Positions 9,856 to 14,426 of a DNA stretch of 14,426 nt are shown here, piece after piece (position 1 is the stretch's first letter; the number at the start of each line of letters is the position of its first letter). Origin of the DNA: an uncultured Kiloniellales bacterium (lineage in GTDB: Bacteria; Pseudomonadota; Alphaproteobacteria; Kiloniellales; JAKSDN01); NCBI GenBank assembly GCA_937974415.1, contig CALJXB010000108.1, positions 1 through 14,426 of the forward strand. The letters are read 5' to 3'. The translations under genes and the position numbers were made by a program. A model generated the notes under the pieces. That model was not told where the DNA came from. It worked only from the letters and a program-made list of their open reading frames with translations, and ran no database searches.

Positions 9856-10464
9856 ATGGCTGCGACGTCCTCCAGGCGCCTCCTGGCCCGGCTTCTCTCC
9901 ATTGTAATCCTGTGCTTGGTGCTTTGGACGGCGGGGTTGGTGTGGTTCGCTACCAGCCTGCCCACCACGGTGGCGGATCCCGCACGGCGAACCGATGCCG
10001 TCGTCGTCTTGACCGGTGGTACCGGCCGCCTGCGCCAGGGTTTCGAGCTGCTCGAGCAGGACCGAGCCCAGGAGCTGTTCATCTCGGGTGTCGGCCGTGG
10101 CGTGAAGGTGGACGAACTCTTGCGCATCGACCAAATCGCGCCCCCGGAGCTCGTGTGCTGCGTCGTGCTCGGCTACAAGGCCGGCGACACCCGAGGCAAC
10201 GCCTTGGAGACGGCAGCCTGGATGGCGGCTCAGGGCTTCGAGTCGCTACGCCTGGTGACCGCGACCTATCACATGCCACGCTCGCTGTTGGAGTTCCGCG
10301 CCGCGATGCCGGGAACGGAGATTCTGCCCCACCCGGTCTTCAGCCGTAACTTCAGGCAGGCGGATTGGTGGCAATGGCCCGGTAGCACCCTTTTGTTGGC
10401 CAAGGAATTCAACAAGTTCCTGCTGGCCTGGGCGCGCAGCCGGCTGCTCGACGGCGCGCCATGA
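9856..10464 (+). CDS. YdcF-like DUF218 envelope protein
   Basis: This is a DUF218 (YdcF/SanA/ElyC type) protein of 202 residues. An N-terminal membrane anchor at about 11-33 is followed by a Rossmann-like domain, presumably periplasmic. It begins with TDAVVVLTGGTGRLRQG (46-62) and carries the family's GDTRGNALETA segment (110-120) and VTATYHMPRS (134-143). ElyC and SanA, members of the same family in E. coli, affect peptidoglycan and envelope integrity. The biochemical activity of this branch is not known. The start ATG 9856 follows GAGAGG (9848-9853) closely. The stop overlaps the plsC start by 4 bp (ATGA), and ftsX lies 31 bp upstream, so all four genes ftsE-ftsX-ydcF-plsC probably share a transcript. 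Confidence 0.88.
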   Translation: MAATSSRRLLARLLSIVILCLVLWTAGLVWFATSLPTTVADPARRTDAVVVLTGGTGRLRQGFELLEQDRAQELFISGVGRGVKVDELLRIDQIAPPELVCCVVLGYKAGDTRGNALETAAWMAAQGFESLRLVTATYHMPRSLLEFRAAMPGTEILPHPVFSRNFRQADWWQWPGSTLLLAKEFNKFLLAWARSRLLDGAP

Positions 10465-11177
10465 CGGTCTTTCGCTCCCTCTTGTTCAATTTGGTGTTTT
10501 TCGGCACCGGTGCGGTGTTTCTGAGCTTGGCGCTGCCCGCCTTGCTGTTGCCGCGGCGGGTCACGATCGTCGTCGGGAGGTTGTGGTTTCCTTTCGTGCT
10601 AGGAGCCTTGCGTCTTATCTGCGGCGTCAGCTACGAGATTCGCGGGCGGGAGAACATTCCCGCCACACCTGCGATCATAGCGGCCAAGCACCAGTCGGCC
10701 TGGGACACCCTCGTCTTTCAAACTTTCATCGACGACGGCGCCTATGTGATCAAGCGGGAGCTGACCCGGATCCCGGTCTACGGCTGGATGCTGATCAAGG
10801 CCGAGATGGTGCCGGTCGACCGGGCGGCTGGCGCCAAGGCGCTGCGGACCATGGTCAAGACCGCGCATTCGCGCCTGGCAGACGGTCGCCACATCGTGAT
10901 TTTTCCAGAAGGCACCCGCACCGCGCCGGGCGAACGCCGGGATTATCATCCCGGGGTCGCGGCGCTCTATAGCCAACTCGACGTCCCGGTGGTTCCCGTG
11001 GCGCTCAACTCCGGCCTGTTTTGGCCGCGGCGCGCCTTCCTCAAGCGCCCGGGGCATATCGTCGTGGAAATTCTGCCGCCGATTCCCACGGGCTTGCCGC
11101 GCCGCGAATTCATGGCGCAACTGCAGTCCGCGATCGAGGACGCCAGCGACCGCCTGTGCGCGATTGACTGCGCTTGA
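10461..11177 (+). CDS. plsC: 1-acyl-sn-glycerol-3-phosphate acyltransferase
   Basis: PlsC acylates lysophosphatidic acid to phosphatidic acid at the inner membrane, the entry to phospholipid synthesis. The 238-residue product has a hydrophobic N-terminal region (about 8-52), then the acyltransferase motifs: I, HQSAWD (77-82, His77 and Asp82 of the HX4D catalytic dyad); II, TRIPVYGWML (102-111); III, FPEGTR (148-153), binding the glycerol phosphate; and IV, around VPVALNSGLFW (about 173-184). The length is normal. The ATG overlaps the preceding stop (ATGA), which indicates coupling. Homologues with lysophospholipid or ornithine-lipid specificity exist (for example OlsA), so exact substrate preference is inferred. 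It is the last gene of the ftsEX cluster. Confidence 0.92.
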   Translation: MTVFRSLLFNLVFFGTGAVFLSLALPALLLPRRVTIVVGRLWFPFVLGALRLICGVSYEIRGRENIPATPAIIAAKHQSAWDTLVFQTFIDDGAYVIKRELTRIPVYGWMLIKAEMVPVDRAAGAKALRTMVKTAHSRLADGRHIVIFPEGTRTAPGERRDYHPGVAALYSQLDVPVVPVALNSGLFWPRRAFLKRPGHIVVEILPPIPTGLPRREFMAQLQSAIEDASDRLCAIDCA

Positions 11178-11215
11178 TTGGCCGGATTGGGCTGGGAGTC
11201 CGCGTCCTCCTCTCT

Positions 11216-11236
11216 TGTGGATAAACTTGTGGGTGA
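11216..11236 (-). promoter_or_regulatory. DnaA box (perfect) plus a weaker neighbour, upstream of nrdJ
   Basis: TGTGGATAA at 11216-11224 is the complement of TTATCCACA, identical to the strongest E. coli oriC DnaA boxes. Twelve bases further (11228-11236) TGTGGGTGA matches at seven of nine positions in the same orientation. The pair lies in the plsC-nrdJ gap, about 100 bp upstream of the predicted nrdJ -35 element. DnaA control of ribonucleotide reductase genes is established for E. coli nrdAB. The role here is inferred from sequence and position. Confidence 0.55.
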
Positions 11237-11301
11237 ACGTCGTCCCGCGCAGCTGGCCGGCCAAGTTCGCAAGGGGACGGCCGTGGGCGTGCCGCTACCG
11301 A

Positions 11302-11316
11302 GAACGAATATGGAAC
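11302..11316 (+). promoter_or_regulatory. LexA-type SOS operator upstream of nrdJ
   Basis: The sequence is GAAC (11302-11305), seven bases, GAAC (11313-11316). This exactly matches the direct-repeat LexA site described for alphaproteobacteria (GTTC-N7-GTTC on the other strand). A third, degenerate half-site GACC (11324-11327) follows at the same 11-bp phase and overlaps the proposed -35 element. Bound LexA would block that promoter, so nrdJ is predicted to be SOS-inducible. No lexA gene is in the window. Confidence 0.65.
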
Positions 11317-11321
11317 ATTCA

Positions 11322-11350
11322 TTGACCGCAGGGGCTTTGACCGGTATTCT
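11322..11350 (+). promoter_or_regulatory. Predicted sigma-70-type promoter of nrdJ
   Basis: TTGACC (11322-11327) and TATTCT (11345-11350) are separated by 17 bp, the optimal spacing. They match the TTGACA/TATAAT consensus at five and four positions. Transcription would begin near 11357 and leave a leader of about 89 nt before the nrdJ ATG. A second TTGACC at 11337-11342 has no well-spaced -10 partner. Confidence 0.55.
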
Positions 11351-11374
11351 GACTTGGTGGCACCGTATCTTTTC

Positions 11375-11415
11375 CGGCGGTTAAGCGATTTAGGCGTATC
11401 TTCGCTCAACCGCTG
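11375..11415 (+). promoter_or_regulatory. Strong stem-loop in the predicted nrdJ 5' leader
   Basis: GCGGTTAAGCGA (11377-11388) pairs with TCGCTCAACCGC (11402-11413) at 11 of 12 positions around a 13-nt loop. A G-U and a C-G pair extend the base to 11375/11415. It ends 30 bases before the nrdJ start. No T-run follows, so it is not an intrinsic terminator of plsC. It could be an RNA leader element or a palindromic protein site. I see no B12-box sequence, so it is not called a cobalamin riboswitch. Confidence 0.55.
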
Positions 11416-11445
11416 TCGCGTGAGGCGAGTCGCAGGGCCAGGAAA

Positions 11446-13854
11446 ATGTCGCAGATTTCGGCCATATCCCAGCGAATATGGGACGCCAAGTACCGCTTCA
11501 AGACGGACGCCGGCGATCCTGTGGACAAAACCGTCGAGGACAGCTGGCATCGGGTCGCCGCGACCCTGGCGAAGCCGGAAAGGGAGCAGGCCTCATGGGC
11601 CGGCCGCTTTGCCGAGGCGCTGGCGGATTTCCGCTTCATTCCGGCCGGCCGGATTCTCGCCGGGGCGGGGACCGACCGCCGGGTGACGCTGTTCAACTGT
11701 TTTGTCATGGGCCGCATCCCGGACGACATGGGCGGCATTTTCGAGAACCTCAAGGAGGCGGCGCTCACCCTGCAGCAGGGCGGGGGCATCGGCTACGACT
11801 TCTCGACCCTCAGGCCCAAGGGCGCCATGGTCCACGGGGTGGGGGCGGACGCCTCCGGCCCTTTGAGTTTCATGCACGTCTGGGACGCCATGTGCCGCAC
11901 CATCATGAGCGCCGGCTCGCGCCGGGGCGCCATGATGGGCACCCTGCGCTGCGACCATCCGGACATCGAGGACTTCATTGCGGCCAAGGAGAACCCCGAG
12001 CGCCTGCGCATGTTCAACCTCTCGGTACTGGTCACCGACGCCTTCATGCAGGCGGTCAAGGAGGACGCGCCCTGGGAGCTTTCGTTCGGCGGCGCCACCT
12101 ACCGCGTGGTCCCGGCTCGCGAGCTGTTCGACCGCATCATGCGGGCCACCTACGCCTATGCCGAGCCCGGGGTCATCTTCATCGACCGAATCAATCAGCG
12201 GAACAACCTCCATTACTGCGAGGAGATCCAGGCCACCAATCCCTGCGGCGAGCAGCCTTTGCCGCCCTACGGCGCCTGCCTGCTGGGGTCGATCAACCTG
12301 GCGAAACTGGTCGAGCGGCCGTTCGAGGCCGATGCCCGGTTGGATCTGGCGGCGCTGGAGGCCCTGGCGCCGGTTGCCGTGCGCATGCTGGACAATGCCA
12401 TCGACATATCGCGCTTTCCCTTACCGGCGCAGAAGCACGAGGCGCTGGCCAAGCGTCGCATCGGCCTCGGCATCACCGGATTGGCCGACGCTCTGATCAT
12501 GTGCGGCGTGCGTTACGGCAGCGCCGAGGCGGTGGAGCTGACCGAGACCTGGATGCGGTCGCTGCAACATGCGGCCTACGGCGCCTCGATAGACCTGGCG
12601 CGCGAGAAGGGCGCGTTTCCTCTGTTCGACCGGGACGCCTATCTCGAAGGCGAGTCCGTTAAGGGCCTCGACCGCGAGCTGCGCGATGCCATCGCCGAGC
12701 ACGGCATCCGCAACGCACTGGTCACCTCGGTCGCGCCGACCGGCACCATCTCCCTCTTCGCCGACAACGTCTCGTCGGGGCTGGAGCCGGTCTTCGCCTT
12801 CACGGCCCAGCGGGCGATCCTGCAGCCCGACGGCAGCCGCGAGTTCGAAGAGGTGAGCGACTATGCCTATCGCCTGTTCCGCCGTGTGAAGGGCGAAGAG
12901 GCCGATCTCACGCCGGCCTTCGTCGATACCCAGAGCCTGGAGCCCTCGGCCCACGTGGTCATGCAGGCTGCGGTCCAGAAGTTTGTCGACAGCTCGGTCT
13001 CCAAGACCATCAACCTGCCGGAGGACATCACCTTCGAAGCTTTCCGCGACGTCTACCTGCAGGCCTACGATCTCGGCTGCAAGGGTTGCACCACCTACCG
13101 CCCCAACCCGGTCACCGGGGCCGTGCTCGAAGCGCGCAGCCAGGTGCCGGAAACGGCCCCGCTCGAGCCCCAGGCCAAGGTGGCATCCGCTGCGCCGGTT
13201 GCCCCGCCTCATGAGGAAGAGGTGCCGGAAGCGCCGCCGCCGCCGCTGCGCGCCGACGCGGAAGCCAGCGTGGAGCACGACGATGCGGGCGGCCCGGGCG
13301 GCATCGTCTACATGACGCAGCCGCTGGCCCGGCCGGAGGCCTTGCCGGGGCGAACCTACAAGCTGCGCTGGCCGGAGAGCGACCATGCCATCTACATCAC
13401 CCTGAACGACGTGGTGCAGGACGGGCGCCGGCGGCCCTTCGAGATCTTCATCAACTCCAAGAACATGGAGCACTACGCCTGGACCCTGGCGCTGACCCGC
13501 ATGATCAGCGCCGTGTTCCGGCGCGGCGGCGACGTTTCCTTCGTGGTCGAGGAACTGAAGGCGGTGTTCGACCCGCGCGGCGGCGCCTGGCTCGGCGGGC
13601 GTTATGTGCCCTCGCTGCTGGCCGCCATCGGCGATGTCATAGAGCGCCACATGATCGACATTGGGTTCCTGCCTGCCGACGAGGACCGGCTGCAAGCGGA
13701 GCCTCGGCGCGCCGTCGCTGGCGAGCCGGACCCCTCGCCGGGCCACCCGAGCCATCGTGCTCTGCGCCAGTGCCCGAAGTGCGGCGGCGCCGCCTTGATC
13801 CATCAGGAAGGCTGCGACCTCTGCATGGCCTGCGGCTATTCGCGCTGCTCCTAA
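11446..13854 (+). CDS. nrdJ: Adenosylcobalamin-dependent (class II) ribonucleotide reductase
   Basis: NrdJ reduces ribonucleotides to deoxyribonucleotides using a thiyl radical made from adenosylcobalamin, without oxygen or a second subunit. The 802-residue product matches the bacterial type (TIGR02504). It has an N-terminal redox cysteine in FNCFVMGR (Cys85), the active-site NPCGE (265-269: Asn265, Cys267 as radical cysteine, Glu269), and PTGTISLFADNVSSGLEPVF, the phosphate-binding loop region, around 427-446. A CKGCTTYRPN motif lies near 545. A proline- and acid-rich linker (about 563-623) separates the barrel from a TSCPD-like domain (about 625-745) and a C-terminal zinc-ribbon or redox tail with Cys776, 779, 790, 793, 796 and 801. 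It is shorter than the roughly 1,200-residue forms found in many alphaproteobacteria. The start ATG 11446 has AGGA/AGGG just upstream. It stands alone, with its own regulatory region. Confidence 0.95.
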   Translation: MSQISAISQRIWDAKYRFKTDAGDPVDKTVEDSWHRVAATLAKPEREQASWAGRFAEALADFRFIPAGRILAGAGTDRRVTLFNCFVMGRIPDDMGGIFENLKEAALTLQQGGGIGYDFSTLRPKGAMVHGVGADASGPLSFMHVWDAMCRTIMSAGSRRGAMMGTLRCDHPDIEDFIAAKENPERLRMFNLSVLVTDAFMQAVKEDAPWELSFGGATYRVVPARELFDRIMRATYAYAEPGVIFIDRINQRNNLHYCEEIQATNPCGEQPLPPYGACLLGSINLAKLVERPFEADARLDLAALEALAPVAVRMLDNAIDISRFPLPAQKHEALAKRRIGLGITGLADALIMCGVRYGSAEAVELTETWMRSLQHAAYGASIDLAREKGAFPLFDRDAYLEGESVKGLDRELRDAIAEHGIRNALVTSVAPTGTISLFADNVSSGLEPVFAFTAQRAILQPDGSREFEEVSDYAYRLFRRVKGEEADLTPAFVDTQSLEPSAHVVMQAAVQKFVDSSVSKTINLPEDITFEAFRDVYLQAYDLGCKGCTTYRPNPVTGAVLEARSQVPETAPLEPQAKVASAAPVAPPHEEEVPEAPPPPLRADAEASVEHDDAGGPGGIVYMTQPLARPEALPGRTYKLRWPESDHAIYITLNDVVQDGRRRPFEIFINSKNMEHYAWTLALTRMISAVFRRGGDVSFVVEELKAVFDPRGGAWLGGRYVPSLLAAIGDVIERHMIDIGFLPADEDRLQAEPRRAVAGEPDPSPGHPSHRALRQCPKCGGAALIHQEGCDLCMACGYSRCS

Positions 13855-13973: not shown

Positions 13974-14006
13974 AAGACCTGAGGGCGGCGGCGGAGGGAC
14001 AGTGCT

Positions 14007-14035
14007 TTCGACCTTTGACGCCCGTGCCGGTCGAA
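14007..14035. promoter_or_regulatory. Inverted repeat in the phnD upstream region
   Basis: TTCGACC (14007-14013) and GGTCGAA (14029-14035) are perfect inverted 7-mers around 15 bases. They lie between the Pho-box-like site and an AT-rich patch (TTTAAAATTAA, 14047-14057) that could hold a -10 element. This could be an operator or a leader hairpin. No known regulator is recognised from the half-site. Confidence 0.35.
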
Positions 14036-14088
14036 GATCGTCGCGGTTTAAAATTAAGAACGACACAGGGATCATGGGAGGCATCAGC

Positions 14089-14426
14089 ATGAAAACTAGG
14101 CTACTCGTTGCCATAGCGGCCGCCGCATTGCTCGCGCTCGCCGCCGGCACCCCGAACCAGGCAATCGCCGCCGAGGACTGCCCGCGCGGCGCCCTCGACG
14201 AGCAGTATTGCGATCGCGACGGCGATCTGACCGCCGACACGCCGACCGATGCGGCAAACTTGGTCGATCCCGATACCATCATCTTCGCCTACACGCCGGT
14301 CGAAGATCCGGCGGTCTATCGCGAGGCCTGGGCCGATTTCTTGACCCACATGGAGCAGGTCACCGGCAAGAAGGTGCAGTTCTTCCCGGTCCAGTCCAAC
14401 GCGGCCCAGATCGAGGCCATGCGCTC
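14089..14426 (+). CDS. phnD: PhnD-type phosphonate/phosphite/phosphate ABC transporter binding protein (5' part)
   Basis: The gene is cut by the window end, and only its first 112 codons are visible. It starts at ATG 14089, with GGGAGG (14076-14081) seven bases upstream. An in-frame ATG at 14074 lies before that ribosome site and is less likely. Residues 1-28 form a Sec signal peptide (hydrophobic core 5-19, cleavage probably after AIA or AIAA). The mature N-terminus is acidic with two cysteines (Cys31 and Cys41), probably a disulfide. VDPDTIIFAYTPVEDPAVY (about 60-78) and VQFFPVQSNAAQIEAMRS at the end are characteristic of PhnD/PtxB-like periplasmic solute-binding proteins. The ligand (phosphonate, phosphite or phosphate) cannot be decided from this fragment. 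The rest of the importer is expected downstream. Confidence 0.88.
   Translation, partial: MKTRLLVAIAAAALLALAAGTPNQAIAAEDCPRGALDEQYCDRDGDLTADTPTDAANLVDPDTIIFAYTPVEDPAVYREAWADFLTHMEQVTGKKVQFFPVQSNAAQIEAMR

Follow-up and report, generated by a model that had tools for sequence, protein, structure and literature searches.

A predicted LexA operator upstream of a class II ribonucleotide reductase gene in a Kiloniellales bacterium

The LexA operator of alphaproteobacteria is a direct repeat, GTTC-N7-GTTC (equivalent to GAAC-N7-GAAC). For Caulobacter, PMC4211646 gives GTTC-N7-GTTC as the consensus and also accepts sites with seven of the eight bases, and the SOS genes reported for Sphingopyxis in PMC6472365 include the error-prone polymerase cassette imuA-imuB-dnaE2. 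For ribonucleotide reductases (RNRs), PMC5963079 reports that nrdAB of Vibrio cholerae is induced by mitomycin C but not through SOS, that LexA failed in an EMSA to bind a LexA-like sequence at nrdA, and, by citation, that nrdAB of Escherichia coli likewise lies outside the SOS response. By analogy, the Vibrio cholerae case is a warning that resemblance in sequence need not mean binding. These nrdAB enzymes are class I and reported not to be LexA-bound, whereas the gene considered here, nrdJ, encodes a class II enzyme and is preceded by the same direct repeat as the alphaproteobacterial operator. Direct control of an RNR by LexA would run contrary to the nrdAB case as reported in PMC5963079. 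Our literature search did not turn up LexA control of nrdJ; a mention in Erill 2004 or da Rocha 2008 is possible.

The window, i.e., the whole stretch of 14,426 nucleotides that was analyzed, contains a short nrdJ with an ATG start codon at 11446 (Table 1). Its product scores 586.7 bits against TIGR02504 (cut-off 399.95), which by family confirms the class II RNR named in an earlier, sequence-only reading of this DNA. The protein contains the RNR barrel, all-alpha, and TSCPD domains, and its best-scoring solved relatives are B12-dependent enzymes (e.g., PDB: 1xje); use of B12 as a cofactor and independence from oxygen are presumed from family membership. While the catalytic barrel and family score are like those of other class II NrdJ proteins (TIGR02504; 1xje), this form differs in being short, in carrying TSCPD, and in occurring beside a second, long RNR, represented in the organism's own genome by a frame that spans 1129 aa or more. 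Because the preceding plsC-like gene is co-directional and ends before the site, the operator is evidently directed at nrdJ. The 5' part of a gene for a phosphate/phosphonate-type ABC substrate-binding protein occupies 14002-14424, where it is cut by the contig end.

Table 1. Features of the nrdJ region, with positions numbered along the window.
Feature	Position	Strand	Evidence or remark
plsC-like acyltransferase gene, co-directional with nrdJ	10461..11177	+	
Intergenic region from the plsC-like gene to nrdJ	11178-11445		
Predicted LexA operator GAAC-N7-GAAC, GAACGAATATGGAAC	11302..11316	+	matrix score 22.6; reached by 0/5000 shuffles
-35 element TTGACC	11322..11327	+	sequence; TTGA 1-7 nt after the site in 39/53 anchored sites
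-10 element TATTCT, after a 17-bp spacer from the -35	11345..11350	+	sequence; putative promoter function
nrdJ, short (802 aa) class II ribonucleotide reductase, TSCPD domain, C-terminal cysteine cluster	11446..13854	+	

The GAAC half-sites at 11302-11305 and 11313-11316 lie 7 bases apart, and the window contains no second exact GAAC-N7-GAAC. Five bases, ATTCA (11317-11321), separate them from the -35 element, so the placement given by the sequence-only reading, with the repeat ending 5 bp ahead of TTGACC-N17-TATTCT, agrees with the sequence. At this distance, overlap with the core promoter depends on the footprint. A hairpin is predicted in the nrdJ leader (inverted repeat at 11375-11415), yet the leader is no more stable than its shuffles (z score of -0.94 over 11357-11450, with 42 of 200 shuffles folding equally well), and a search of the window with Rfam at gathering scores returned no match.

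The sequence-only reading had also held that eight fixed bases in this position are unlikely by chance, and this did not stand. By chance alone, 0.38 copies of the bare eight-base pattern are expected in the window, and at least one copy turns up in 64 of 200 window shuffles. Across the organism's genome (2.89 Mb), there are 32 exact matches versus 80 for the reversed control pattern, i.e., no genome-wide enrichment. As the bare pattern is weak evidence, we built a weight matrix from the operators that relatives carry in front of lexA and recA. From 110 candidate sites, 16 (12 different sequences) were removed by hand as spurious and 94 were kept; the matrix comprises 81 unique operators, none of them from nrdJ; it is partly hand-picked, and its training sites were limited to those with no more than one mismatch. 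At 22.6, the window site comes close to the training median of 24.6, and this score was not reached in 5000 dinucleotide shuffles of the 220-nt nrdJ upstream region. Based on this extended consensus and its recurrence at orthologues (discussed below), we consider the site non-random.

One LexA was detected in the organism's own genome (TIGR00498, 172.3 bits, over the cut-off), and GAACCAAACTAGAAC, found upstream of its lexA (C363), is an operator of the same type as that at nrdJ, as the sequence-only reading would have it. Neither recA nor a uvrA over the cut-off was found in this MAG, which is 69% complete, and this leaves lexA and imuA for the comparison within the genome. A site of the same type, GAACAAAACACGAAC, occurs ahead of imuA-imuB-dnaE2 (C321). 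In this cassette the ImuA family match is 35.4 bits (below the cut-off of 150), the Y-family IMS_C domain scores 40.8 bits, and the error-prone polymerase, truncated at the end of its contig, scores 275.7 bits against NF004225 (below the cut-off of 939). The cassette provides error-prone polymerase functions, whereas nrdJ would provide dNTPs. Matrix scores were obtained for 30 of the 32 exact own-genome sites: lexA scores 27.6, imuA 26.1, a site between an rpoH-like and a usp gene 22.9, and nrdJ 22.6; below these are one site at 19.3 and 25 others, all at 15.7 or less. The site scoring 22.9, GAACAAAACTCGAAC (L019:1192-1206), lies between genes for an rpoH-like sigma factor and a universal stress protein. 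That scoring 19.3, GAACATGACAAGAAC (L003:1501-1515), is ahead of a PA0069-type radical SAM gene and is adjoined by further GAAC/GTAC repeats; an attempt to identify the minus-strand frame beside it was without result.

We searched 58 genomes of relatives, including the organism's own, and took 30 loci each for lexA and recA from the 54 and 56 genomes, respectively, that had a match. An exact site is present upstream of lexA in 24 of 30 loci, 20 of which read GAAC[TC]AAACTAGAAC. Upstream of recA, the exact site occurs in 7 of 30 loci and GAAC-N7-GTAC in 21 of 30, which suggests that one of the two halves may be degenerate in operators of this group. The lexA operators of the group cover the likely -10 (placement by eye), whereas the nrdJ site is placed upstream of the -35, and this difference counts against assigning the nrdJ site to LexA.

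To compare orthologues, 220 nt upstream of short nrdJ genes were scored in 43 loci of the order (including the window; a few genes are fragmentary) and in named genomes, for which the top 80 out of 557 confirmed loci were taken. Of these, 79 were used (L106, whose match starts at residue 49, was omitted) and were divided by hand, from record titles, into 39 Rhodobacterales and 40 others. Among the 42 order relatives, 16 score at least 15, or 17 of 43 when the window is counted; in the named genomes (best 80 of 557), 27 of 40 outside the Rhodobacterales and 1 of 39 within them (L125-L169) do so. Other windows of the named loci (best 80 of 557), from which alone the background was taken, reach 15 at rates of 0.25% (of 4048) and 0.24% (of 4224), and the shuffled means per set are 0.04 for the order, 0.33 for named non-Rhodobacterales, and 0.23 for Rhodobacterales. 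Exact sites are present in 16 of 43 order loci (window included) and, from the best 80 of 557, in 8 of 40 others and 4 of 39 Rhodobacterales (background 0.5% and 0.4%). With up to one mismatch, the corresponding counts are 30 of 43, 32 of 40, and 7 of 39, again for the best 80 of 557 in the latter two, over a background of 13-15%.

Many orthologues thus carry the motif that the sequence-only reading led one to expect, and many within the order are without a good site. Within the order, 26 of 42 relatives stay under a score of 15 and 17 of them under 8, which counts against LexA control; given these 17, the site was repeatedly lost, moved or weakened, or was never present. The Rhodobacterales orthologues are mostly without it and this is, on the upstream sequences, a clade-wide difference in predicted wiring. 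On a FastTree tree built from 83 of the 109 NrdJ proteins, with the Rhodobacterales thinned to one in three, sites occur in several deep branches, and a limit of 12 requires at least 16 state changes. Because of shared phylogeny within these genome sets, the counts cannot be treated as independent trials; in addition, L055, an order relative, and L091, a named Kiloniellaceae bacterium, have identical NrdJ proteins and are counted once too often.

The shape of the element was derived from 53 anchored sites (score of at least 8, plus strand, unique, window included). Conservation peaks over the 15-bp site and the next two bases, and preceding bases reach at most 0.22 bits. Signal is also present at the -35, with 0.80 bits at position 21, and positions 42-44 near the -10 carry a weak one (0.25-0.43 bits). 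Because the matrix picked the sites, in-site conservation is partly built in, from which the -35 signal is exempt. The second half is nearly fixed as GAAC, while position 1 of the first half is G in 33 sites and A in 20; this degeneracy at many orthologous sites counts against LexA as the regulator, although the LexA-type sites at recA likewise have one degenerate half (GTAC as the second half in 21 of 30). TTGA follows at a spacing of 6 in 16 sites, 5 in nine, 7 in seven, and 1 in seven. The remaining 14 have no TTGA within 9 nt, and a few among them lie, by eye, at or after the likely -10 (e.g., L100, L044, and L124). A third half-site continuing the 11-bp phase into the -35 had also been proposed for the window. 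The bases in question, GACC (11324-11327), match at three of four positions and are the last four bases of the -35 box itself. Such a half-site needs a spacing of 5, which is found in 9 of the 39 anchored sites with TTGA within 9 nt, and since the spacing to the -35 varies among orthologous sites, we rule it out as a conserved element.

It is very probable, based on these comparisons, that the site is an SOS operator by which LexA represses nrdJ and from which DNA damage releases it. The own lexA operator and the recurrence at orthologues support the apparent LexA/SOS control put forward in the sequence-only reading; because the organism's own damage-response genes share the operator and many relatives keep it, damage is suggested to turn on NrdJ, with binding and induction as predicted steps. 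In an undamaged cell, LexA would sit on GAAC-N7-GAAC, at roughly -55 to -41 relative to a start site judged by eye, beside the -35, and from this position would hinder RNA polymerase at the nrdJ promoter. DNA damage would lead to RecA-stimulated self-cleavage of LexA and free the promoter. The B12-dependent, oxygen-independent NrdJ would then be made and, judging from its function, may supply dNTPs for repair and translesion synthesis.

LexA could instead bind here as an activator or dual regulator. A dual role is known for LexA at recA of Rhodobacter sphaeroides, activators often sit just upstream of the -35, and 39 of the 53 anchored sites end 1-7 nt before TTGA; this position leaves a dual role some likelihood. 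We nevertheless consider it unlikely, as the -35 is near consensus, so that an activator seems unneeded, and as the 14 sites without TTGA within 9 nt, some of them at or beyond the likely -10, fit a repressor of drifting place. A different protein reading 11-bp direct repeats, such as an OmpR/PhoB-type activator beside the -35, would account for a repeat of this period adjoining the -35 and for a first half that is often AAAC instead of GAAC. However, a matrix made from lexA and recA operators without nrdJ sites picks out the nrdJ sites, and the sites at lexA and imuA in this organism belong to the same type, making another regulator very improbable. A chance match without function is hardly credible: it agrees with the number of bare patterns expected per window (0.38), with the lack of genome-wide enrichment, and with the 26 of 42 order relatives below 15, but not with the failure of all 5000 shuffles to reach the matrix score nor with the 43 of 82 other upstream regions outside the Rhodobacterales that score at least 15 (16 of 42 plus 27 of 40, the latter from the best 80 of 557).

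With repression by LexA as the favored reading, nrdJ is predicted to belong to the SOS regulon as a new member, at a large share of the sampled alphaproteobacterial nrdJ loci outside the Rhodobacterales. If this is correct, a LexA-controlled class II RNR would tie damage repair to a B12-dependent, oxygen-independent source of dNTPs, which is a possible reason for these bacteria keeping a second NrdJ, and it would become testable how SOS mutagenesis is linked to dNTP pools.

We also scored the regions upstream of long NrdJ, as a control for specificity, and of class I nrdA, in 20 genomes each. For long NrdJ (~1200 aa), none of the 20 relatives reaches 15 (highest 12.6), and the best score upstream of the organism's own long NrdJ is 0.9, an absence that speaks for LexA control of the short form. 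For nrdA (~690 aa), 16 of 20 relatives (L238-L257) score at least 15; in one genome the identity of NrdA (NF006577, 1032.9 bits) and of the adjoining nrdB (PF00268) was established. In the organism's own MAG (69% complete), nrdA was not seen, and short and long NrdJ only are present. We give an even chance to the broader proposal that, across a broad set of alphaproteobacteria, LexA directly controls short NrdJ and class I NrdAB and not long NrdJ, which would yield an inducible dNTP supply, working both in the presence and in the absence of oxygen, to accompany translesion synthesis by dnaE2.

In several genomes the nrdA site lies just after the likely -10, and AT-rich elements following it resemble, by eye, the consensus of NrdR boxes. 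A gene for SRAP (SOS response associated peptidase), an SOS-associated family, is close to nrdA in both relatives inspected (L259:4301-5020 and L260:5057-5860). In G038, the intergenic region upstream of nrdA is common to a divergent SRAP gene, so the site there could serve either gene, and in G007 the neighbor of nrdA runs the same way as nrdA.
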